Assembly: GCA_017400025.1 (NCBI GenBank)
Contig: JAFQAF010000186.1
Span: 1-9,675, forward strand
Direction: 5' to 3'
Length of the DNA stretch: 9,675 nt
From: Oscillospiraceae bacterium
GTDB taxonomy: Bacteria; Bacillota_A; Clostridia; Oscillospirales; Ruminococcaceae
A model generated the notes under the pieces. The model saw only the letters and a program-made list of their open reading frames with translations, made no database searches and was not told the origin of the DNA. Each line of letters opens with the position of its first letter. Within the stretch, counting starts at the first letter, position 1. Made by a program: the position numbers and the translations under genes. Below, piece after piece: positions 112 to 9,675 of the stretch.

Positions 112-531
112 TTAAATTTCACCTATTGTGCCGTCCAGCAGGTCCTGTACTGATACACCCTTGAAAAAACGGTCAATCATACGGTCCAGTTCTGTCCACA
201 TTTTCAGCGTTGGGCAGCTGTCCTTGCGGGGGCAGATTTTGTTGGGGTTTTCAAGACAGGAAACAGGGGCATAGCTGCCTTCTGTAGCTTTCAGAATATC
301 GGCCACAGAATATTCAGCAGGCCGGCGGTTCAGTTTATAGCCGCCTCCCTTACCTCTTACACTGTCCAGCAGACCGCTTCTGGACAATGATGAAACTATG
401 CTCTCCAGATATTTTTCGGAAATATCCTGGCGCTGTGCCACTTCAGTCAAAGGTATAAAACCGTTGCTTTTCTGGCTCGCCAGATCTGCCATCACTCTCA
501 GTGCATATCTGCCTTTTGTAGAAACCAGCAT
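112..531 (-). CDS. Rrf2/IscR-family transcriptional regulator (iron-sulfur type)
   Basis: A 139-residue winged-helix regulator of the Rrf2 family, a typical length. An N-terminal helix-turn-helix runs through residues about 4-67, with the family signature MLVSTKGRYALRVMADLA at the start and a GKGGGYKL wing at 61-67. Three cysteines at C92, C100 and C106 (CX7CX5C) match the cluster-binding region of IscR, so it probably carries a [2Fe-2S] cluster. The fourth ligand of E. coli IscR, a histidine three residues after the last cysteine, is leucine here (L109), so cluster ligation must differ if present. I chose the ATG at 531 because GGAGGT lies 6 nt upstream and the conserved family sequence begins there. 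An in-frame ATG at 594 would add 21 unconserved residues that span the RBS. The gene is divergent from the EamA permease. Targets cannot be read from the sequence; autoregulation and Fe-S or cysteine metabolism are usual for the family. Confidence 0.92.
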   Translation of the reverse strand: MLVSTKGRYALRVMADLASQKSNGFIPLTEVAQRQDISEKYLESIVSSLSRSGLLDSVRGKGGGYKLNRRPAEYSVADILKATEGSYAPVSCLENPNKICPRKDSCPTLKMWTELDRMIDRFFKGVSVQDLLDGTIGEI

Positions 532-557
532 AAGACTACCTCCAATAACATATATTA

Positions 558-563
558 ATAATA
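558..563 (-). promoter_or_regulatory. Possible -10 element for the Rrf2 gene
   Basis: Read on the minus strand this is TATTAT. It would place a transcript start near 551, about 20 nt before the ATG at 531 and just ahead of the GGAGGT ribosome binding site. No convincing -35 box is seen at the right distance (TTATGT at a 17-bp spacing). The promoter may be weak or activator-dependent, or the call may be wrong in this AT-rich stretch. Confidence 0.3.
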
Positions 564-588
564 CTTTTGTGGTAATTTTAACATAATT

Positions 589-600
589 TGACACGTGTCA
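589..600. promoter_or_regulatory. 12-bp perfect palindrome, candidate operator
   Basis: TGACACGTGTCA is a perfect inverted repeat between the divergent Rrf2 and EamA genes, 24 bp upstream of the EamA -35 box. A related GACA-T-TGTC element lies at 627-635 and overlaps that -35 box. Together they look like two binding sites for one dimeric regulator, possibly the adjacent Rrf2 protein. This is inference: no Rrf2 consensus is matched exactly. Confidence 0.45.
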
Positions 601-653: not shown

Positions 654-685
654 AAATAGATATGATATCAGATTATGGAGGATTT

Positions 686-1576
686 ATGAAAAAACAGACA
701 GCAATTTTTCTGCTTGTTATAGTTACTGTGATATGGGGCGGCGGCTTTGTGGGTATAAAGCTGGCTCTGGACAACGGAGTTTCCGCCGGTACACTGAATA
801 TGATAAGAGGTGCCATATTCACTTTTGTTGTATTTTCCGCTTTTCCCAAACAGGTGCTTGGTATGTCAAAACGGCAGTTTTTCAACGGCCTGCGGGTAGG
901 TGTTTTCAATTTCCTGGGCTTTATCCTGCAGGCGGTGGGTGCACTGTATACCACACCGGGCAATTCTTCTTTCCTCACTGTCACAAATGTGGTTATGGTG
1001 CCGTTTATGGCGTGGGCGCTGTACAAGGTTAAGCCCAGACCGCGAAATATAGTGGCGGTTGCCCTGTGTATGGCCGGTATGGCAGTGCTGACAGGTGTTG
1101 TGGGCACAGAGTTTGTGCTGAACATCGGCGATGCCTACACCATAGCAGGTGCTGCAGGTTTTGCAATGAGCATTGTTCTGCTGGCACAGCAGCCACGGGA
1201 CGGCCACTTTGCCGCCGGTTCATTTATGCTGGGGCTCACACTTTTCCTTGGCGGTGCCTTTTATGCCGTATTTTTTGAAGGCATCACACCGGCATCCCTT
1301 GCCCTTGTAAACTGGAAAGCTGCCCTGCTGCCTATACTCTATCTTTCCATCGGCTCAAACTTTGTGGCGCAGTCACTGCAGATTGTGGCACAGCGCTATC
1401 TCACAGCGGCCACAGCCAGCCTTGTGCTCACACTGGAAGGTGTCTTCGGCTGCCTGTTCAGCGTGCTGTGGGGCTTTGAAAAATTCACCGCAAACCTGCT
1501 TGTGGGCGGCGGCCTGATTATGGCCAGCCTTATCCTCAGCGAAATACAGATTATAAAACCGAAAAAAACCAGATAA
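686..1576 (+). CDS. EamA/DMT-superfamily permease
   Basis: A 296-residue inner-membrane protein with about ten hydrophobic helices in two homologous halves (roughly residues 5-140 and 150-290), the standard architecture and length of EamA drug/metabolite transporters. The family hallmark near the end of the first helix, WGGGFVGIK from W17, is present, and PGNSSFLT marks the end of the fourth. The C-terminus is basic (KPKKTR), as expected for a cytoplasmic tail. The substrate cannot be assigned; relatives export or import amino acids, nucleotides or other small metabolites. The ATG at 686 is preceded by GGAGG with 4 nt spacing. The gene has its own promoter and terminator, so it is a single transcription unit and probably not part of the glycan locus downstream. 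Regulation by the divergent Rrf2 protein is possible but unproven. Confidence 0.93.
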   Translation: MKKQTAIFLLVIVTVIWGGGFVGIKLALDNGVSAGTLNMIRGAIFTFVVFSAFPKQVLGMSKRQFFNGLRVGVFNFLGFILQAVGALYTTPGNSSFLTVTNVVMVPFMAWALYKVKPRPRNIVAVALCMAGMAVLTGVVGTEFVLNIGDAYTIAGAAGFAMSIVLLAQQPRDGHFAAGSFMLGLTLFLGGAFYAVFFEGITPASLALVNWKAALLPILYLSIGSNFVAQSLQIVAQRYLTAATASLVLTLEGVFGCLFSVLWGFEKFTANLLVGGGLIMASLILSEIQIIKPKKTR

Positions 1577-1721: not shown

Positions 1722-2708
1722 ATGGCTAACAAAAAGGTACTTGTTACAGGTGCAGACGGCTTTATCGGCTCTCACCTCACACAGCAGCTTATCCGCGAAG
1801 GCTATGATGTTACAGCTTTCTGTGCATACAACTCTTTCGGCACCTGGGGCTGGATAGACACTTTCTCAAAAGAAGAGAAAAATGCCCTCAACGTTATTAT
1901 GGGTGACGTGCGTGACCCTAACGGCGTGCGCGTTGCAATGAAAGGCATGGACACAGTTTATCATCTGGCTGCACTTATCGCTATTCCTTTCTCATACCAT
2001 TCACCGGACACATACGTGGATACAAACATCAAGGGCACACTGAATGTTCTGCAGGCAGCCCGTGACCTGGACACACGCCGTGTGCTGGTTACATCAACAA
2101 GCGAAGTTTACGGTACTGCACAGTATGTGCCTATTGACGAAAAGCATCCATACCAGGGCCAGAGTCCATACTCTGCCACAAAAATCGGTGCAGACAGAAT
2201 TGCAGAGAGCTTCTACCGCTCCTTCAACACACCTGTTACAATAGTCCGTCCGTTCAATACTTTCGGCCCCCGCCAGTCCGCCCGTGCTGTTATCCCTACA
2301 ATCATCAGCCAGCTGCTGGCAGGCAAGGAAGAAATCCGTCTGGGTTCCCTCACACCTACCCGTGACTTCAACTATGTAAAAGACACAGCAAACGGCTTTG
2401 TTACAATTGCAAAACACGACAATACCATCGGCCGCGAACTGAACATTGCCACAGAAAAAGAAATCTCCATCGGTCAGCTGGCAGAAGAACTTATCAGACA
2501 GATTAACCCGAATGCAAAAATCGTTACAGATACAGACCGTCTGCGCCCTGAAAAGAGCGAAGTTAACCGCCTGCTGGGCACAGCAAAAGAGCTGAACAAG
2601 CTGACAGGCTGGAAGCCTAACTATACATTCGAAGAAGGCATTGCCGAAACTATCGAATGGTTCAGAGGCAATCTGTCCTCCTACAAGACAGATATCTACA
2701 ATATCTAA
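1722..2708 (+). CDS. legB: LegB-type NAD-dependent NDP-GlcNAc 4,6-dehydratase
   Basis: A 328-residue extended short-chain dehydrogenase, full length for its family. The NAD-binding Rossmann glycines are in GADGFIG (10-16). The catalytic pair is Y150 and K154 in YSATK. The active-site loop TSTSEVYG (124-131) has T126, S127, E128, with serine where RmlB/Gmd-type dehydratases carry aspartate. AFCAYNSFGTWGW near the N-terminus, LIAIPFSYHSPDTYVDTN and FGPRQSARAVIPTI are features I recognise from the LegB group (LLPSF_EDH_00030 family), whose characterised Campylobacter member removes water from GDP-GlcNAc to give a 4-keto-6-deoxy sugar, the first step to legionaminic acid. The nucleotide carrier (GDP or UDP) cannot be told from sequence. 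It is cytoplasmic. Its usual partner LegC appears to start only at 9645, with five membrane-protein genes between. Sister functions such as a UDP-sugar 4,6-dehydratase for another deoxy amino sugar remain possible. Confidence 0.88.
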   Translation: MANKKVLVTGADGFIGSHLTQQLIREGYDVTAFCAYNSFGTWGWIDTFSKEEKNALNVIMGDVRDPNGVRVAMKGMDTVYHLAALIAIPFSYHSPDTYVDTNIKGTLNVLQAARDLDTRRVLVTSTSEVYGTAQYVPIDEKHPYQGQSPYSATKIGADRIAESFYRSFNTPVTIVRPFNTFGPRQSARAVIPTIISQLLAGKEEIRLGSLTPTRDFNYVKDTANGFVTIAKHDNTIGRELNIATEKEISIGQLAEELIRQINPNAKIVTDTDRLRPEKSEVNRLLGTAKELNKLTGWKPNYTFEEGIAETIEWFRGNLSSYKTDIYNI

Positions 2709-2727
2709 ATAACGGCGGCGTTATTTA
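2706..2727 (+). promoter_or_regulatory. Perfect hairpin joining stop codon to next start codon
   Basis: The arms TAAATAACG (2706-2714) and CGTTATTTA (2719-2727) are exact complements around a GCGG loop, giving a 9-bp stem. The stem begins with the TAA stop of the dehydratase gene and ends on the A of the ATG of the DUF2142 gene, so it fills the whole 18-nt gap. The only Shine-Dalgarno-like bases (GGCGG, 2714-2718) are mainly in the loop. It may couple or damp translation of the membrane-protein genes. Terminator activity is less likely because no T tract follows. Confidence 0.6.
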
Positions 2728-4331
2728 TGGATGTATTAGCAAACAAATTAAGAATGACAGTCGATAACCTTAAGAAAAAGCCTGTGCTGGTATACAGTAT
2801 GGGCTGTTTGCTTTTGTTTGCACTGTCATTTTTCTTTACCTATTATCTCCGTGTTATCTATTCCCCGGCCTGGCTGGGGCAGATAAACGGCACACTGGGC
2901 ATTTTCGGGGCACTGTGGCTGGTGTATACCGCCTTTGTGCTGGCGGCCCGCTTTGCAAAGAACAACCGGAGCCTGTTTATGGCTCTGCTCCTGCTGGTGC
3001 TGGGTGTGGTGTGGACCTTTGCCACACCGCCAAACCAGGTGCCGGACGAACACACCCACTTCCTGCGCAGCCACCAGATGGCCCAGGGCCAGTGGGGGTT
3101 TGACCAGCATCACGTTTTCCCGGATGATGTGAACAGCTTTATAAAGCATTTCCCCCAGGCGCACAACAACGGCTACCCTGCAAAAGAGGGCAACACCGTG
3201 TACAACCGCTTTGTGGAATACTATGACGCCCTGAAAAGCGGCGAAAAAGCGGAAAATGTGGGCATAATTATTTTCCAGGTTATACCTTATATCCCCGGTG
3301 CAGTTGGTATCTTCCTGGCCCGTCTTATGGGCTTCGGGGCACTGGGTGCGTTTTACGGCCACCGTTTGGCAAATGTGGCGGTTTTCTGTTTCACAGCTTA
3401 CTTTGCCCTTAAAATGGCGGGCAAGTTCAGGGTGATTATGTTCACCCTTATGTCCCTGCCGCTGATGGGCTTTATGTACTCCTCTGCAAACAGCGACAGT
3501 ATGCTGTTCGCCCTTATGTTCCTTATGTTCGGCGCTGTGCTGTCACAGCAGTTTGACTGGAAAAAGGGCCTTGTGTTCGCTTTCAGCTTTGCTGTGCTGT
3601 GCACCTGCAAAATGAGCTACATCGTTTTCCTGCCGCTGGTATTCTGTGTACCGAAAGAGGGCTGGCAGGTAAAAGTGAAGGACAAAAACATCTCCAGGCT
3701 GGTTTATCTGGTCTTTGCCCTTGTGGTTTTCCTTATTGTCTACCAGGGTATGGGGCTGTATGTTTCCGCCTTTTCAAACTACGGGGAAATCCCCCGCACA
3801 ATGTCAGATACAGACCCTGTGGCACAGCTGATTTTCATACTGAAAAACCCTCTGCGCTATGCGGCAGTGTTCTTTGATACACTGAAAAACAACGCTTTCT
3901 TCCTGTTCTCCGGCGGCGTTCTCGGCTGGCTGGATGTCCACCTGCCTCTTATCAATTATCTCACACCGGTGATAGTTATTTTTTGCTGTGCAAAGCAGGC
4001 ACAGGTGTTCACAAAAGAGGATATGAACAAGACAGCCATATTCTTTGTATGCGGCATTCTCACCTACGCAGTGGCTATGACAGGCCTCTACCTGTCCTGG
4101 ACACCGGTAACACTGCCGCAGATTATCGGCCTGCAGATGCGCTATGTCTACCCGGCCTTTATGGGCTTTGCCATGGCGATGGGCCAGTATTTTTCCACAC
4201 GAGTGGACAAAAATGTTAAAAATACAGACTTCTCCTGCATAACCACCGGCTATGTGTTCTCACTCTTTGCAGTGGTGCTTATGCTTATCGTTTACTATTT
4301 ACCGGAAAGGGCGGTGGTATTTGTTGCTTAA
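2727..4331 (+). CDS. DUF2142 polytopic membrane protein, probable glycan assembly
   Basis: A 534-residue protein with about 12 hydrophobic segments. After a short basic cytoplasmic N-terminus come helices near 20-40, 55-75 and 82-100. The motif PDEHTHF (106-112) follows in the first large outward loop, with PPNQV just before it. An acidic pair after an early helix, in the context PDExxHF, is the mark of the DUF2142 family, which is common in surface-polysaccharide loci and resembles GT-C glycosyltransferases that use polyprenyl-linked sugars. D107 and E108 are therefore the likely key residues. The biochemical role of the family is not established. The gene starts 18 nt after the legB stop, has a weak ribosome binding site within a hairpin, and its 3' end overlaps the next gene by 8 nt, so translation is probably coupled. 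An internal ATG at codon 10 lacks a ribosome binding site and is less likely. Confidence 0.85.
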   Translation: MDVLANKLRMTVDNLKKKPVLVYSMGCLLLFALSFFFTYYLRVIYSPAWLGQINGTLGIFGALWLVYTAFVLAARFAKNNRSLFMALLLLVLGVVWTFATPPNQVPDEHTHFLRSHQMAQGQWGFDQHHVFPDDVNSFIKHFPQAHNNGYPAKEGNTVYNRFVEYYDALKSGEKAENVGIIIFQVIPYIPGAVGIFLARLMGFGALGAFYGHRLANVAVFCFTAYFALKMAGKFRVIMFTLMSLPLMGFMYSSANSDSMLFALMFLMFGAVLSQQFDWKKGLVFAFSFAVLCTCKMSYIVFLPLVFCVPKEGWQVKVKDKNISRLVYLVFALVVFLIVYQGMGLYVSAFSNYGEIPRTMSDTDPVAQLIFILKNPLRYAAVFFDTLKNNAFFLFSGGVLGWLDVHLPLINYLTPVIVIFCCAKQAQVFTKEDMNKTAIFFVCGILTYAVAMTGLYLSWTPVTLPQIIGLQMRYVYPAFMGFAMAMGQYFSTRVDKNVKNTDFSCITTGYVFSLFAVVLMLIVYYLPERAVVFVA

Positions 4332-6264
4332 CAGTTTGTTTGCACTGGCAGTTGTGATTATGTTTGCCTTTGCGCTGCATACCCTCACCGGCATAAAAAG
4401 CCGGCTGGCACCGCTGGTTTCCATCACCACCCTGGTGGCTGTGGCCATACTCTGCGGTATGTACGACCTGCTGAAGCCTGGCGTGGTGCTGGCCTATGCA
4501 GTGGGCGTTGCCGCCTTTGCATACAGCCTTTACAAAGCAAAGGACAGCCTGAAAGAAAAGCTGGCCTCCTTCCTTTCACCGGGGGTGGTGCTGTTTATAC
4601 TTTCATCCTTTGCAATGCTGCTGTTTATGGCAATGCGCCAGCCGCTGATGACAGAATGGGACGAATTCTCCTTCTGGGGCATCAGCCAGAAACTGCTGAA
4701 AATCCACGACCAGCTGTACACCTACTACAAATCCAGTATGATAGGCAATTCCACCCCTCCGGGGCTGCCGGTGCTGTCCTATTTCTTCCAGCGGTTTGTG
4801 CCGGAATTCACAGAGTGGATCAGCTTTCTGGCCTATGACGTGCTTTTCTTTGCCTGCTACAGTGCCTTTACTGCGGCCTTTGAAAAGAAAAGCTGGAACT
4901 CCGCCGTGATGACATACGTCTTCGGCTTCCTTGTTCCTTATGTTTTTGAAGTTTATACAAAAATAATCTACCTTGAGCCGGTTTATATGCTCACCTATGC
5001 GGATATTCCTCTGGGGGTTGTGTTTGCCGGTGCAATGGCGGTTTACTTCTTCTCCGAAAATACAGACAGCCGCACAGTCCTGCCGGTGCTGCCTGTGATT
5101 TTCTTCCTCACTATGATAAAGGATATGGGTTTTGCCCTGTCCTGCATTGTGGTGTTTATGGCTTTCTTTGATATGTGGGCTGGCAGGAAGGAATTCTCTT
5201 TCCTTAAAATCCGCGGTTTCTTCGGCAAGGTGGCTGCAGCGGCAGTTATGCTCATCACAGCCCTGGGCACCTTCCTTTCCTGGTCCATGCACATGGCACG
5301 CGTTATGGAGCGTGACCCCTTTGCCCTGGGCGGTGCCACAAATATGGGCATGGTGGAAATGCTTGTCACCGGCGTGAAAGAGCTGCTGATAGGCCCCAGA
5401 AGTGAAAAATTCCAGGTTATCACTGACCTTATGGTGAAGGCTTTCCTCAGGACAGAGCTTTCCTTCCTGGGCAGCGGTATCCGCATCTTTATAATCATCA
5501 CAGCGGTTTTTGCTGTGGCGGCAGTTCTCAATGATAAAAAAGGCTTTTTGCGCACAGTCACCCTTTATGTAACCAGCCTTATCGGCTTTGTGGGCTACTA
5601 TGTGTTCCACATTTTCCTTTATGTTTATATCTTCAAGGACAACGCCTATGAGCTGGTAAGCTACAACCGTTACATCTATCCGTACTATATCGGCTGGATG
5701 TGCTTCGGGGTGTTTGCACTGTGCCTTGCGGTGAAAAACGGCAGGCGCTTCCTTTCAAAAACTGCACTGTTCTGTTTCTCCGGTATTATTCTGGTGCTGT
5801 TCCACGTTTACACAGACTATGAATACCTGTTTATAGGCTGTGCAGAAAGAAACTTTGCCACACGCCGCAGCATACAGACAAAGGCGGACTACCTTGACGA
5901 TGTAATCAACCCTGAGGACGTGATTTATCTTTACTCCGGCGGGGACAACGGCCAGCGCTGGTTTATCTACACCCATCAACTGGCGGAAAACTATATTATA
6001 GAAGACTTCGGCGTGGATACCACCGGTATGACAGAGGAGGAAATCCGCACTGCATACAGACAGAAACTGTACACACGCTTTACAGAAAAAGGTGTTACCC
6101 ACGTGCTGATAGATTCTTCATCCGAATTCTTTATCGATACCTTCGGGGACCTTTTCGATGTGCCTATGGATTATGTGGGCCTTGATTCCGTTGCCTATTA
6201 CAAAGTGAACTACACAGATGACTGGTTCAGCTTCAGCGAAGTAAAGGGAGGTGTGGTGAAATGA
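4324..6264 (+). CDS. GT-C-like polytopic membrane protein, copy 1
   Basis: 646 residues: about 12 hydrophobic segments to roughly residue 505, then a soluble C-terminal part (about 510-646). The motif WDEFSFWG begins at W112, with D113 and E114 in the first large outward loop, followed by a conserved YTYYKSSM stretch. ADIPLG has D227. Acidic residues in early outward loops are typical of GT-C glycosyltransferases, so a polyprenyl-sugar-using transferase is the best guess; no named family is recognised. The tail ends with VTHVLID, AYYKVNY and VKGG, all shared with copy 2. I chose the TTG at 4324 because an SD-like GGCGGTGG lies 6 nt upstream and copy 2 starts identically (ML-S plus FAF-L--LTGI). 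A start at the ATG at 4252 would overlap the DUF2142 gene by 80 nt and add residues absent from copy 2; TTG 4321 is an alternative. The 3' end overlaps the next gene by 4 nt (ATGA). Confidence 0.82.
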   Translation: MLNSLFALAVVIMFAFALHTLTGIKSRLAPLVSITTLVAVAILCGMYDLLKPGVVLAYAVGVAAFAYSLYKAKDSLKEKLASFLSPGVVLFILSSFAMLLFMAMRQPLMTEWDEFSFWGISQKLLKIHDQLYTYYKSSMIGNSTPPGLPVLSYFFQRFVPEFTEWISFLAYDVLFFACYSAFTAAFEKKSWNSAVMTYVFGFLVPYVFEVYTKIIYLEPVYMLTYADIPLGVVFAGAMAVYFFSENTDSRTVLPVLPVIFFLTMIKDMGFALSCIVVFMAFFDMWAGRKEFSFLKIRGFFGKVAAAAVMLITALGTFLSWSMHMARVMERDPFALGGATNMGMVEMLVTGVKELLIGPRSEKFQVITDLMVKAFLRTELSFLGSGIRIFIIITAVFAVAAVLNDKKGFLRTVTLYVTSLIGFVGYYVFHIFLYVYIFKDNAYELVSYNRYIYPYYIGWMCFGVFALCLAVKNGRRFLSKTALFCFSGIILVLFHVYTDYEYLFIGCAERNFATRRSIQTKADYLDDVINPEDVIYLYSGGDNGQRWFIYTHQLAENYIIEDFGVDTTGMTEEEIRTAYRQKLYTRFTEKGVTHVLIDSSSEFFIDTFGDLFDVPMDYVGLDSVAYYKVNYTDDWFSFSEVKGGVVK

Positions 6265-6875
6265 TAAAAAGGATTGAAAAAATCAAAGCCTGGCAGATTT
6301 TCACAGCCACAGCCCTTGTGTTTGTACTTGGCTTTGTTACGGTGTGCGGCTATCACTGCATAAGGGAAACCTCTGCCCGCAAGGACGGCACACTGGTCAC
6401 CCACACACTGACAGCAGACGATTTTGAACTGCGCGATATAAAGAAAACAGACGATGGCTGGCGCACCACAAACCACGACAGCCAGATGCGCCTGGACAAA
6501 GAACAGAAATTCTCCAGTATGAAATTCACTATGGACTACTCCGTTGAGCCGGGGGAAATAGTGGTTTATTACAAAGAACCGGGGGACGAACACTACTCCG
6601 AACAGAAACGCCTGTGGGCACAGCCGGTGGACGGCACAGACAACCGGTACATCGTGCAGATGCCGGTAAAGCAGGTGACTGCCATCCGTCTGGACCCTTC
6701 CATGTTTGCCGGCAACAATCTGGTTTTCGGCGACTTTGTGTTCAATGAAGAAAAGCAGATTGCAGATTACTTTGATGTTACCTACACCCATGTTTTCTGT
6801 CTTGTGCTTTACACCCTTGTGGTTTCTGCCTGCCTTAAATACGGCCAGGAATTTCTTACAAAAAAATTTGACTGA
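6261..6875 (+). CDS. Small membrane protein with outward beta-rich domain, copy 1
   Basis: 204 residues with no function I recognise. One hydrophobic helix lies near residues 12-32, then a polar domain of about 145 residues, a second helix near 179-197, and a short tail ending LTKKFD. By the positive-inside rule the polar domain faces outward. Its alternating hydrophobic pattern (FSSMKFTMDYSV, EIVVYYKEP, AIRLDPS) suggests a beta-sandwich, perhaps sugar-binding. The block YSEQKRLWAQPV around W119 and the DSQM and IRLDP motifs recur in the second copy. The ATG overlaps the TGA of the preceding gene (ATGA), with a strong GGGAGGTG ribosome binding site inside that gene's last codons, so the two are translated together in matched amounts. 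I infer that it is a dedicated partner or substrate-presenting subunit of copy 1. It ends with tandem stops, TGA TAA. Confidence 0.78.
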   Translation: MIKRIEKIKAWQIFTATALVFVLGFVTVCGYHCIRETSARKDGTLVTHTLTADDFELRDIKKTDDGWRTTNHDSQMRLDKEQKFSSMKFTMDYSVEPGEIVVYYKEPGDEHYSEQKRLWAQPVDGTDNRYIVQMPVKQVTAIRLDPSMFAGNNLVFGDFVFNEEKQIADYFDVTYTHVFCLVLYTLVVSACLKYGQEFLTKKFD

Positions 6876-6916
6876 TAACTGATTAAAATATCCCATACAG
6901 AAAGGCGGTGGTCTGC

Positions 6917-8854
6917 TTGCTGAGCAGTGTTGCTGCATTGTTTACAATTATAATTTTTGCTTTCGGGCTGTATGCCCTCACAGGCATCAGCCGGCGGATT
7001 GCACCCCTGGTGGGGCTGGTGCTGCTGTGTGATGTTGCTATGGTGCGGGCTATGGGGGGCGGTCTTTACGCCGGCACGCTGGCGGTTTATATCATAGCCG
7101 CCGGGGTTTTTGCCCTTGCCCTTTACACACACAGAAAAGACCTGGGCAACAGGCTGAAAGGCTTTTTTGCGCCCGGTGTGGTGCTGTTTGTCATCAGCAG
7201 TGCGGTTATGCTGCTGGTACTGCGGCAGACACAGCCGGTTATGCACGGCTGGGACGAATTCTCCTTCTGGGGCACCAGCCAGAAACTGGTAAAACAGCAC
7301 AACGCCCTGTACACCTACTATTCCAGCAGTATGCTGGGCAAATCCATTCCTCCGTCCATGGCGGTGCTCACCTATTTCTTCGGTTTTGCATCCGGCAGCT
7401 TTGTGGAGTGGATATGCTACTTTGCCTATGATGTGCTGTTCTTTGCCTGCTTTGCCGCTTTCACAGCGGTTTTTGATGAAAAACAGCCACACAGCGCATT
7501 TATGCTGTACACCGCAGCATTTATGATTCCATTTATATTTGAAATCACAGAAATAAACTCCAAGCTCTACTCCACCTATATCAGCGCCTACGGGGATATC
7601 CCTCTGGCACTGGTCTTTGCCGGTGCAGTGGCGGTTTATTTCTGCACACACCATACAGACAGCCGCAGGGTATGGCCTGTGCTGCCGGTGCTGGTTTTCC
7701 TCACACTTATCAAGGATATGGGCCTTGCCCTCAGCTGTATAGCTGCCTTTGTGATTTTCTTTGATATGGTTGTGGGCATAAAGGACTTTTCCTTTGCAAA
7801 AATCCGCGGCTTTTTCGGCAAATGTGCCGCCGCGGCCTCTATGCTGGCAGTCACCGGCATTTCCTACATCGGCTGGAGCGTACATCTGGCAAAGGTCCTC
7901 ACCCTGGACCGTTCAGACTTCGGCGGCTCTTCCGGCATGGGTATGGGCCGGATGCTGATAGCCGGTGTAAAGGCACTGCTGGGCATTGAACGCGACAGAA
8001 AATTCAGAGAAATCTTCGCTTCAATGATTTCCGCCTTCTTCAATCTGAAAGTTTCCATGTTCGGCTCCGGCCTTATGGTGGTGGCGGTTATCACCGCTGT
8101 GTTTGCCGCCGCATTTATCCTGGGGGACAAAAAAGGCAGCATCCGCACTGCCACAGCCTATATCACCACCTGGATTGGCTTTATCGGCTACTATGTATTC
8201 CATATTTTCCTCTATGTTTACGTTTTCAGAAACGATGCATACACCCTGCCAAGCTATGACCGCTATATGTACACCTTCTACATCGGCTGGCTGTGCATAG
8301 GTCTTTTCTGCCTGGCACTGGCGGTGAAGGACGGCCACCGGCTGCTTTCCCGCACTGCACTTTTCGGCTTTGCCGCAGGCTGCCTGCTGATTGTCAGCTT
8401 CTATGCAGACCGGGGCAATACCTTTATAGGAGTAAACCGGAACTCTTTCCCAAAAAGGGAACTTATCCGCCGCAAGGCAGAGTTCCTGCAGGATGCAATA
8501 AGCAGTGACGATGTTATCTATATCGGCAGTGAGGACAACTCCGGCGAACACTGGTTTATCTACACCTATGAACTTGCAGACAATAAGATTGTTCAGGACT
8601 ACTTTGTGTGGGACGGCACCAAAACCGAAGACGAATGGGACGAGATGGCCCCTGCCGTAATGACACAGTATTTCAAAGACAAGGGCGTCACACACTTCCT
8701 TATAGACAATGTAAATGAAGAGTTTATCCAGCGCTACGGAGACCGCTTCGATGTGCCGGTGGACGAAATAGGCCTGAACTATGTGGCTTACTATAAAGTG
8801 AATTACAACGAAAACGGCTTTTATTTCACATTTGTAAAGGGAGGTGCCGCATAA
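6917..8854 (+). CDS. GT-C-like polytopic membrane protein, copy 2
   Basis: 645 residues, paralogous to the gene at 4324 and about half identical by eye across the whole length (not computed). WDEFSFWG again begins at W112, and the second acidic motif is GDIPLA with D227 at the identical position, which supports catalytic or binding roles for these residues. IRGFFGK, GYYVFHIFLYVY, VTHFLID and AYYKVNY are also kept. The copies differ most around residues 35-60, in the outward loop after the FVEW/FTEW segment, and at 555-580 of the soluble tail, where specificity might differ. The best start is TTG 6917: AAGGCGGTGGT, close to the full anti-Shine-Dalgarno complement, ends 4 nt upstream. A GTG at 6908 lies inside that ribosome binding site. 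A 41-nt gap with no promoter separates it from the preceding gene. The TAA stop overlaps the next ATG by one base. Confidence 0.82.
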   Translation: MLSSVAALFTIIIFAFGLYALTGISRRIAPLVGLVLLCDVAMVRAMGGGLYAGTLAVYIIAAGVFALALYTHRKDLGNRLKGFFAPGVVLFVISSAVMLLVLRQTQPVMHGWDEFSFWGTSQKLVKQHNALYTYYSSSMLGKSIPPSMAVLTYFFGFASGSFVEWICYFAYDVLFFACFAAFTAVFDEKQPHSAFMLYTAAFMIPFIFEITEINSKLYSTYISAYGDIPLALVFAGAVAVYFCTHHTDSRRVWPVLPVLVFLTLIKDMGLALSCIAAFVIFFDMVVGIKDFSFAKIRGFFGKCAAAASMLAVTGISYIGWSVHLAKVLTLDRSDFGGSSGMGMGRMLIAGVKALLGIERDRKFREIFASMISAFFNLKVSMFGSGLMVVAVITAVFAAAFILGDKKGSIRTATAYITTWIGFIGYYVFHIFLYVYVFRNDAYTLPSYDRYMYTFYIGWLCIGLFCLALAVKDGHRLLSRTALFGFAAGCLLIVSFYADRGNTFIGVNRNSFPKRELIRRKAEFLQDAISSDDVIYIGSEDNSGEHWFIYTYELADNKIVQDYFVWDGTKTEDEWDEMAPAVMTQYFKDKGVTHFLIDNVNEEFIQRYGDRFDVPVDEIGLNYVAYYKVNYNENGFYFTFVKGGAA

Positions 8855-9504
8855 TGAAAAAACTGCTTTCCCTTTCCTTTACAGCTGTTCTGGCCCTTTC
8901 TGCGGCCATAGTGCTGGGGGCAAATCTTGCCGCCGGCCGGATTGCAGATATGAGGGTGAACAGTGCATACAAGGACGGCAGCCTTGTGTCTGAACAGCTT
9001 TCCGCAGAGGACTTTGAAATGGAAGGTCTTGCGGAAAGAAAACGTGACGGCGTGGTAAAATACGTGGCCACAGACTCTGACCCCCAGATGTACTATACAG
9101 TGGACGGCCTTTTCACAAATATGACCTTCACTATGGAAAACACAATGCCGTATACAGAAATAGTGGTGTACTACACTACAGCAGCAGACCAGGGCTTTTC
9201 CGAAAAACAGCGCCTGTGGGCACAGCCGGTAAAAGGCAGTGACAACACATTTGCTTTCAGCCTGCCTATGCAGTATGTCCACACCCTGCGCATAGACCCT
9301 ACAGTCTCCGGCGGCAGTTTTCTCACCTTCGGCAGTTTTCAGCTGAACGGGGAAAAGACAAGCCGGGAAAGCGGCCCGGGTTATTCCCCGCTTGAATTTC
9401 CTGGCTTTACAGCCACAGACCTGCCCTTTTTTGTGCTGTACACCGGTCTGCTGGCCTCAATAATCCGATTTATTCAGGATTTATTTACAAAAAAGTCAGA
9501 TTAA
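8854..9504 (+). CDS. Small membrane protein with outward beta-rich domain, copy 2
   Basis: 216 residues, paralogous to the gene at 6261 but more diverged. The N-terminus (MKKLLSLSFTAVLALSAAIVLGANLA) could be a signal peptide or a membrane anchor; copy 1 lacks a cleavage-like site, so an anchor is more likely. The outward domain keeps DPQMYYTVDGLFTNMTFTM, EIVVYYT, FSEKQRLWAQPV (W122) and LRIDPT. It then has an extra loop of about a dozen residues rich in G, P and S (SRESGPGYSPLEFPGF) before the second helix near 190-206 and the tail FTKKSD. The ATG overlaps the upstream stop (TAATG), and GGGAGGTG lies in the codons for the upstream VKGG terminus, as in copy 1. The role is unknown; strict pairing with the larger protein suggests a complex. 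Confidence 0.78.
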   Translation: MKKLLSLSFTAVLALSAAIVLGANLAAGRIADMRVNSAYKDGSLVSEQLSAEDFEMEGLAERKRDGVVKYVATDSDPQMYYTVDGLFTNMTFTMENTMPYTEIVVYYTTAADQGFSEKQRLWAQPVKGSDNTFAFSLPMQYVHTLRIDPTVSGGSFLTFGSFQLNGEKTSRESGPGYSPLEFPGFTATDLPFFVLYTGLLASIIRFIQDLFTKKSD

Positions 9505-9644: not shown

Positions 9645-9675
9645 ATGGATAGAAAATTCATTCCACTGTCCGTGC
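9645..9675 (+). CDS. legC: Start of a LegC-type aminotransferase (partial at window edge)
   Basis: Ten codons are visible, MDRKFIPLSV, and the next codon begins with C, which fits proline. An IPLSVP start is characteristic of the PLP-dependent DegT/DnrJ/EryC1-type aminotransferases of the LegC group (LLPSF_NHT_00031), which aminate the 4-keto sugar made by LegB. The ribosome binding site AGGAG (9631-9635) lies 9 nt before the ATG. The assignment rests on ten residues plus the presence of legB in the same cluster, so it is a probable rather than proven call. The catalytic lysine is outside the window. Confidence 0.6.
   Translation, partial: MDRKFIPLSV

Follow-up and report, generated by a model that had tools for sequence, protein, structure and literature searches.

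GT136, a GT-C (C-type glycosyltransferase fold) enzyme, binds its acceptor glycan through a carbohydrate-binding module (CBM) of its own, according to PMC11127046. DUF2142/GT-C proteins figure in the proposed polymerization or attachment of cell-wall polysaccharides in PMC12599335, PMC9746298 and PMC10821137, the last of which assigns the names WpsI and WpsH both ways round. PMC8035078 describes YfhO as a GT-C protein and speculates that, in smaller GT-C enzymes, binding of the acceptor polymer may depend on a second protein. Here we describe a gene pair, large and small, that is a concrete candidate for the arrangement speculated on in that article. The pair occurs twice in tandem in a 9,675-nucleotide stretch of Oscillospiraceae DNA (contig JAFQAF010000186.1), referred to in full as the window, and searches of an open-licence library found no description of either family.

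A sequence-only reading of the window had recognized two adjacent large-small units with a two-helix, beta-rich small protein, the gene order being kept while the sequences diverged. Our analysis bears this out:

4324 to 6264, forward strand: large A, 646 residues, predicted GT-C-type membrane glycosyltransferase, fold carried over from the copy B model (start TTG4324; TTG4321 also possible)
6261 to 6875, forward strand: small A, 204 residues, transmembrane helix, beta-sandwich, transmembrane helix, fold carried over from the small B model
6917 to 8854, forward strand: large B, 645 residues, predicted GT-C-type membrane glycosyltransferase (start TTG6917)
8854 to 9504, forward strand: small B, 216 residues, modeled as helix 9-41, CBM-like beta-sandwich 47-164 and helix 187-212
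4310 to 4317, forward strand: Shine-Dalgarno-like sequence GGCGGTGG of large A
6904 to 6911, forward strand: Shine-Dalgarno-like sequence GGCGGTGG of large B

Both large proteins carry WDEFSFWG from residue 112 and D227, as had been pointed out. Large A and large B are identical at 328 of 643 positions (51%) in a gap-free alignment with a reported E of 0.0, and small A and small B at 72 of 203 (35%, E 7e-40). The proposed conservation of start codon and Shine-Dalgarno placement held, with TTG following GGCGGTGG in both units, but that of the gene overlap did not, as large and small share 4 nucleotides in unit A and 1 in unit B. GTG6908, upstream of large B, falls inside its Shine-Dalgarno sequence. 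At the equivalent position in 18 large genes (window and loci L001-L008), 15 had TTG, 2 had ATG and one, the second copy of L003, had no start codon, and a purine-rich GGNGGTG-like stretch usually lay upstream.

Neither component belongs to a named family, which agrees with the sequence-only reading. Large A, large B and both small proteins gave nothing above cut-off against Pfam and NCBIfam, a profile of large matched no PDB sequence, one of small matched just a ribonuclease there at chance level (E 1.4), and 29 large relatives scanned singly against Pfam at E 10 gave only scattered weak matches to 16 families. GtrII (PF14264) was absent from those 16 and unmatched by both window large proteins. 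A protein search that used no peptide pattern scored the 7999 candidates sharing most words and returned 117 relatives of large B at E 0.001, and small B had 17 at that threshold; the named relatives of large B and small B are hypothetical proteins of Oscillospiraceae metagenome-assembled genomes (MAGs) and one Candidatus Fournierella protein. Aligning 74 of the 117 with the two window copies gave 76 rows, in which P30, P107, D113, E114, W118, W320, G383, Y447, R449 and Y450 are invariant and D227 and K266 nearly so.

The predicted model of large B (predicted local distance difference test, pLDDT, 91.4) has a confident GT-C fold, with matches that include PMT, DPY19, AglB, PglB and ArnT, and not the transporter fold that would have counted against the proposed enzyme. 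On the strength of this model, large is very probably a GT-C enzyme. The conserved acidic pair D113-E114 comes shortly after helix 86-105 of the model, and the GT-C match would place its loop on the outer side of the membrane. We also considered whether large is a paralog of DUF2142 proteins, as the PDE/WDE and RY motifs look similar by eye, and rejected this because profile comparison with hhalign gave only 12.6% and no Pfam match was found.

For small B, the AlphaFold model (pLDDT 83.3) shows a CBM6/36/86-like beta-sandwich between its two helices and matches CBM86/CBM6-type folds with a TM-score to the target of up to 0.59, which is moderate. Judged from this predicted fold, small is reasonably likely to bind the acceptor glycan. 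It could instead be an assembly or stability factor that binds no glycan, which we consider unlikely. In favor of such a factor, no CBM family was recognized by sequence: 17 small proteins searched singly against Pfam at E 10 gave scattered weak matches to 11 families, none of them a CBM. The fold matches also include non-lectin domains, namely the Eph receptor ligand-binding domain and phage tail proteins. Against it speak the fusions described below, in which this domain is joined to DUF2142 or, twice over, to an ABC-2 permease, and which suggest a common glycan role.

The large-small module is real, conserved and repeatedly duplicated. One scan of species genomes with the single peptide pattern [WF]DE[FY]SFWG, which misses loci with other motifs and by its selection partly accounts for motif conservation among the loci found, yielded 73 loci (L001-L073). 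Of these, 69 have Oscillospiraceae or Clostridia-type titles; the others come from Enterobacteriaceae, Yersinia pekkanenii and two Flavobacteriaceae. The recurring order is legB, DUF2142 and one to three large-small pairs, with other genes between pairs in some loci. As had been predicted, the two genes co-occur: a small directly follows 92 of 121 large open reading frames, eight more of which end at the edge of the DNA, and 92 of 93 separate smalls follow a large. An overlap of 4 nucleotides is the commonest arrangement (60 of the 92 pairs).

The remaining 21 large frames, which have no small behind them, fall into three sets. Two are first copies (L004, L009), and six have a DUF2142 gene directly upstream, whose product in five cases is 685-720 residues long and bears a small-like domain, the sixth (L059) being cut at its 5' end. 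The other 13 comprise sister-clade L036, L043, L050 and L065, distant L067, L069, L070, L071 and L072, partial L047, two frames of L073, and L066, where a small-like frame lies upstream of large. At L073:932-2991 (forward strand) a large-family gene is present as two adjacent frames, possibly a broken copy.

The small-like domain also occurs in fused form. In a sister clade, the DUF2142 protein encoded upstream of large is about 650-720 residues long and has an N-terminal domain of the same helix-beta-helix layout (L029, L049, L055, L056, L060, L061, L064), detected as small-like at E 4e-10 to 1.5e-6, with L055 open at its 5' end. No such domain was seen in five ordinary DUF2142 proteins (E 0.19 or worse), and the 5'-truncated L059 gave nothing. 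No separate small is present at L029, L049, L056, L060 and L061; the sequences of L055 and L064 stop too soon to show whether one follows. In genome G061 (L075:1801-3501, reverse strand) an ABC-2 permease carries two small-like beta domains, and its gene neighbors are an ABC ATPase and an RmlD-type gene. These fusions indicate an association of the beta-domain with glycan machinery of the membrane, and DUF2142 may itself belong to the complex. Shortly downstream of the fused-DUF2142/large pair of L060, MBOAT acyltransferase and MatE genes (12904-15897, forward strand) form a possible glycan acetylation and flippase set.

The sequence-only reading of a two-gene module left out the DUF2142 and leg genes, and the pairs do not stand by themselves. 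Large A starts within the last 8 nucleotides of the DUF2142 gene, legB precedes the latter, and all six genes from legB to small B run in the same direction and share an operon. The other genes of the window are:

1722 to 2708, forward strand: legB, NAD-dependent 4,6-dehydratase LegB (TIGR04180, 504.4 bits against a cut-off of 475)
2727 to 4331, forward strand: DUF2142 polytopic membrane protein (PF09913, 163.7 bits against a cut-off of 30.1), upstream neighbor of the module in a conserved position
9646 to 9675, forward strand: first codons (MDRKFIPLSV) of the next gene, cut by the window end, probably legC by position and relatives
112 to 594, reverse strand: Rrf2-type regulator, upstream of legB
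662 to 1576, forward strand: EamA transporter, full length, upstream of legB

The gene at 9646 is assigned as probable legC because LegC occupies that place in L062 and a DegT-family gene does so in L001, where DegT aminotransferase and CBS-nucleotidyltransferase genes follow the module. In L062 the module is followed by LegC, a nucleotidyltransferase, NeuB, NeuC, an unassigned protein, an oxidoreductase, a SUFU-domain protein, another oxidoreductase and a CTP-transferase-family protein. This is a set of nonulosonic acid genes, legionaminic by its LegB and LegC matches. The SUFU-domain protein (L062:18878-19654, forward strand; PF05076, 112.7 bits) sits between the two oxidoreductase genes. 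In three other loci checked, the gene after the last pair encodes YfhO (PF09586; L024:12513, L045:14818, L046:12347). The EamA gene was considered as a dedicated flippase and rejected, since it lies outside the conserved operon and blast against the frames of the 73 loci found only L036; Pfam also places an EamA beside the large of L043. The Rrf2-type regulator was not found by blast at the other fetched loci, and neither Rfam at its gathering threshold nor a tRNA scan gave a match in the window.

A census of 148 genomes of a single family, that of Gemmiger formicilis An812 (G010), tied the module to legB more closely. Large was found in 32 genomes, small in 26, LegB above cut-off in 30 and DUF2142 in 44 (42 above cut-off). 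LegB passed its cut-off in 28 of the 32 large-positive genomes compared with 2 of the 116 others (1 of 14 controls), and the remaining four large-positive genomes had LegB matches below it (one at 460.7 bits, three split or partial). Counting these, LegB is present in 32 of 32 (Fisher 2e-30, relatedness uncorrected). DUF2142 was likewise found in all 32, compared with 12 of the 116 others. The two LegB genomes that lack large are G122, where legB is directly followed by aminotransferase and nucleotidyltransferase genes, and G125, where legB-DUF2142 is followed by only 886 bp of contig, which contain no large.

When small matches were compared with 70 of the 96 large rows, a set that kept all 32 genomes and omitted weaker rows, 43 of 45 lay within 500 bp of a large; one of the others was at a contig edge and the second was a different protein, the G061 permease fusion. 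Seven large-positive genomes had no small match. In five of them a DUF2142 frame adjoins large, with 686-725 residues in G031, G034, G059 and G148 and 504 in G111, and the long DUF2142 frames of G055 and G138 lie apart from large. Such absences are weak evidence, as a local search turned up two smalls on G010 contig C22 that the census search had not detected.

Because the operon is shared with legB, legC and the DUF2142 protein, the glycan probably contains or adjoins legionaminic acid, and we regard a link to legionaminate as likely. The surface-glycan role suggested by the sequence-only reading thus gains support from the nonulosonic-acid operon around the pair. Clues to the donor come from 14 distant relatives, mostly proteobacterial with two flavobacterial and L071, that align with the large family along its whole length (hhalign E 5e-57) with WDEF in register. 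In L067 and L069 the large homolog follows genes for GT2 and an EamA protein of about 114 residues, the three-component layout, and the distant relative at L071:9671-11572 (forward strand) passes Pfam GtrII, a bridge to serotype-converting glucosyltransferases. Together these suggest that the donor is a polyprenyl-phosphate sugar and that the enzyme decorates a glycan. No GT2 gene lies in the window; all 14 module genomes searched encode proteins similar to the L069 GT2 at other sites, mostly in frames of 236-250 residues, and these may make polyprenyl-phosphate sugars.

The explanation we favor, with moderate confidence, is an outer-face GT-C enzyme with a CBM-like acceptor-binding partner, building a legionaminate-linked glycan in diverged duplicate sets. 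Large would act at the outer side of the cytoplasmic membrane, taking a sugar from a polyprenyl-phosphate-linked donor and transferring it to the surface glycan; the catalytic base is likely to be the invariant D113 of WDEF. Small, anchored by its two membrane helices, would hold its beta-sandwich outside and most likely bind the acceptor glycan for its large partner in a putative physical complex. Tandem duplication and divergence would then have produced two such sets of enzyme and partner, each probably serving a linkage or acceptor position of its own.

Several observations weigh against parts of this explanation. The first large copies of L004 (9941-11887) and L009 (3-1181) have no small while the second copies keep theirs, so a large can evidently do without a small of its own, and the four sister-clade loci among the 13 have neither a small nor an adjacent DUF2142. 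Since the sister clade otherwise carries the small domain on DUF2142, the partner of small could be DUF2142. The CBM of GT136 was not essential under the conditions tested in PMC11127046. No GT2 or flippase family was found among the scanned operon genes of L062, L010 and L001. The NeuB family occurs in 18 of 18 module genomes but also in 9 of 14 controls, and the CTP-transferase family in 18 of 18 but also in 11 of 14, so both are broad. NeuB and NeuC of L062 pass neuraminate-type models and the LegB and LegC models are 'hypoth_equivalog', so the product could be another nonulosonic acid. To our knowledge, the known nonulosonate transferases use cytidine monophosphate (CMP)-sugars.

An alternative that we also judge unlikely is a polymerase with its co-polymerase, in which large (or DUF2142) would polymerize flipped repeat units and small would regulate chain length, as proposed for lactococcal WpsI/WpsH. 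Small is similar in topology and each operon has a single DUF2142 gene, as this alternative would have it, but it does not account for the CBM-like beta-sandwich, for the three-component layout around the enterobacterial large homologs, or for two to three diverged pairs per operon, which would exceed the need of one polymer.

The history of the copies bears on whether they do different work. In a quick tree of 114 large proteins, with support from the Shimodaira-Hasegawa-like approximate likelihood ratio test (SH-aLRT) only, window A groups with the first copies (99) and window B with the second copies (100) of L001 and L008. All of these lie in a 20-row clade (support 100) that contains no Gemmiger, Fournierella or Faecalibacterium copy, which indicates that those lineages duplicated separately; the tree does not settle the deeper branching order of the second copies. 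When A and B copies were compared in seven of the nine two-copy loci, 109 fixed sites had the same residue in both copies and 8 fixed sites differed between them, with five of these 8 at 140-144 and 328-340. Those differences are slight evidence for specialization, and their small number, like the single pair in L010 and other loci, is what one would expect if the two copies were redundant and served dosage. We hold redundancy to be rather improbable, given the consistent grouping of first and second copies, the identities of just 51% (large) and 35% (small), and the separate duplications in other clades, and we lean toward copies that differ in specificity.

Least probable is that large is a protein O-glycosyltransferase placing a sugar or oligosaccharide on secreted or surface proteins selected by small: fold matches to PMT, DPY19, AglB and PglB and the legionaminic acid reported on flagellin of other bacteria would suit it, but just 3 of 18 module genomes (G011, G014, G018), and none of the 9 MAGs searched from the window's clade, yielded flagellin, and the clearest homolog gene layout is that of glycan decoration. 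Flagellin was not found in Gemmiger formicilis and Fournierella massiliensis strains either, and we rejected it as a likely target beyond the three genomes named. A spore-surface glycan may be an alternative setting, kept in view because Spo0A_C is present in 17 of 18 module genomes and a legionaminic acid pathway is reported for the Bacillus subtilis crust.

With the outer-face GT-C enzyme and its CBM-like partner as our preferred explanation, the module offers a candidate GT-C family that lacks a Pfam or NCBIfam match and whose genes each have a partner gene for a CBM-like protein tethered to the membrane. Several lineages have duplicated the pair, and a sister clade shows a different fusion. 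The module further connects genes of the legB/legC type with a surface glycan, probably not a flagellar one, of gut Oscillospiraceae related to Gemmiger, Fournierella and Faecalibacterium, and this connection could be of importance in their contact with the host. A much bolder idea, to which we give little credence, is a two-subunit GT-C class in which acceptor recognition resides on a separate membrane-anchored CBM-like protein that co-duplicates with its catalytic partner, and in its boldest form extracytoplasmic legionaminyl transferases with a polyprenyl-linked nonulosonate donor. We know of no example of transfer from such a donor, though no search by name was made.

Compared with known systems, large is only 12% identical to the aminoarabinose transferase ArnT (GT-C; 5ezm/5f15) and has extra N-terminal helices, a separate beta-sandwich partner and leg genes alongside. 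The three-component systems (GtrABC, CsbB-GtcA-YfhO, Citrobacter GT136) also use a GT-C protein as the last step, and two enterobacterial large homologs likewise come after GT2 and EamA genes. In contrast to these systems, the operon here is linked to legB/legC, with neither GT2 nor flippase among the genes scanned, and in contrast to the GT136 enzyme with its own CBM, the Oscillospiraceae binding domain is a separate membrane protein. Mycobacterial EmbC/AftD and, 'potentially', YfhO similarly combine a GT-C with a carbohydrate-binding domain (PMC3044687 and PMC8035078), yet there the domain is built into the enzyme, whereas here it forms its own membrane-anchored protein. Lactococcal WpsI/WpsH resemble the pair in joining a polytopic protein to a membrane-anchored partner with an outer domain in a cell-wall polysaccharide cluster, but large is not detectably related to DUF2142, and here the two stand side by side. 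Finally, the families of the legionaminic acid pathway (LegB, LegC, NeuB-type synthase, NeuC-type epimerase and CMP-transferase) follow in the L062 operon, and unlike the pathway set, in which legB can directly precede an aminotransferase gene as in G122, the DUF2142-large-small block is placed between legB and legC.
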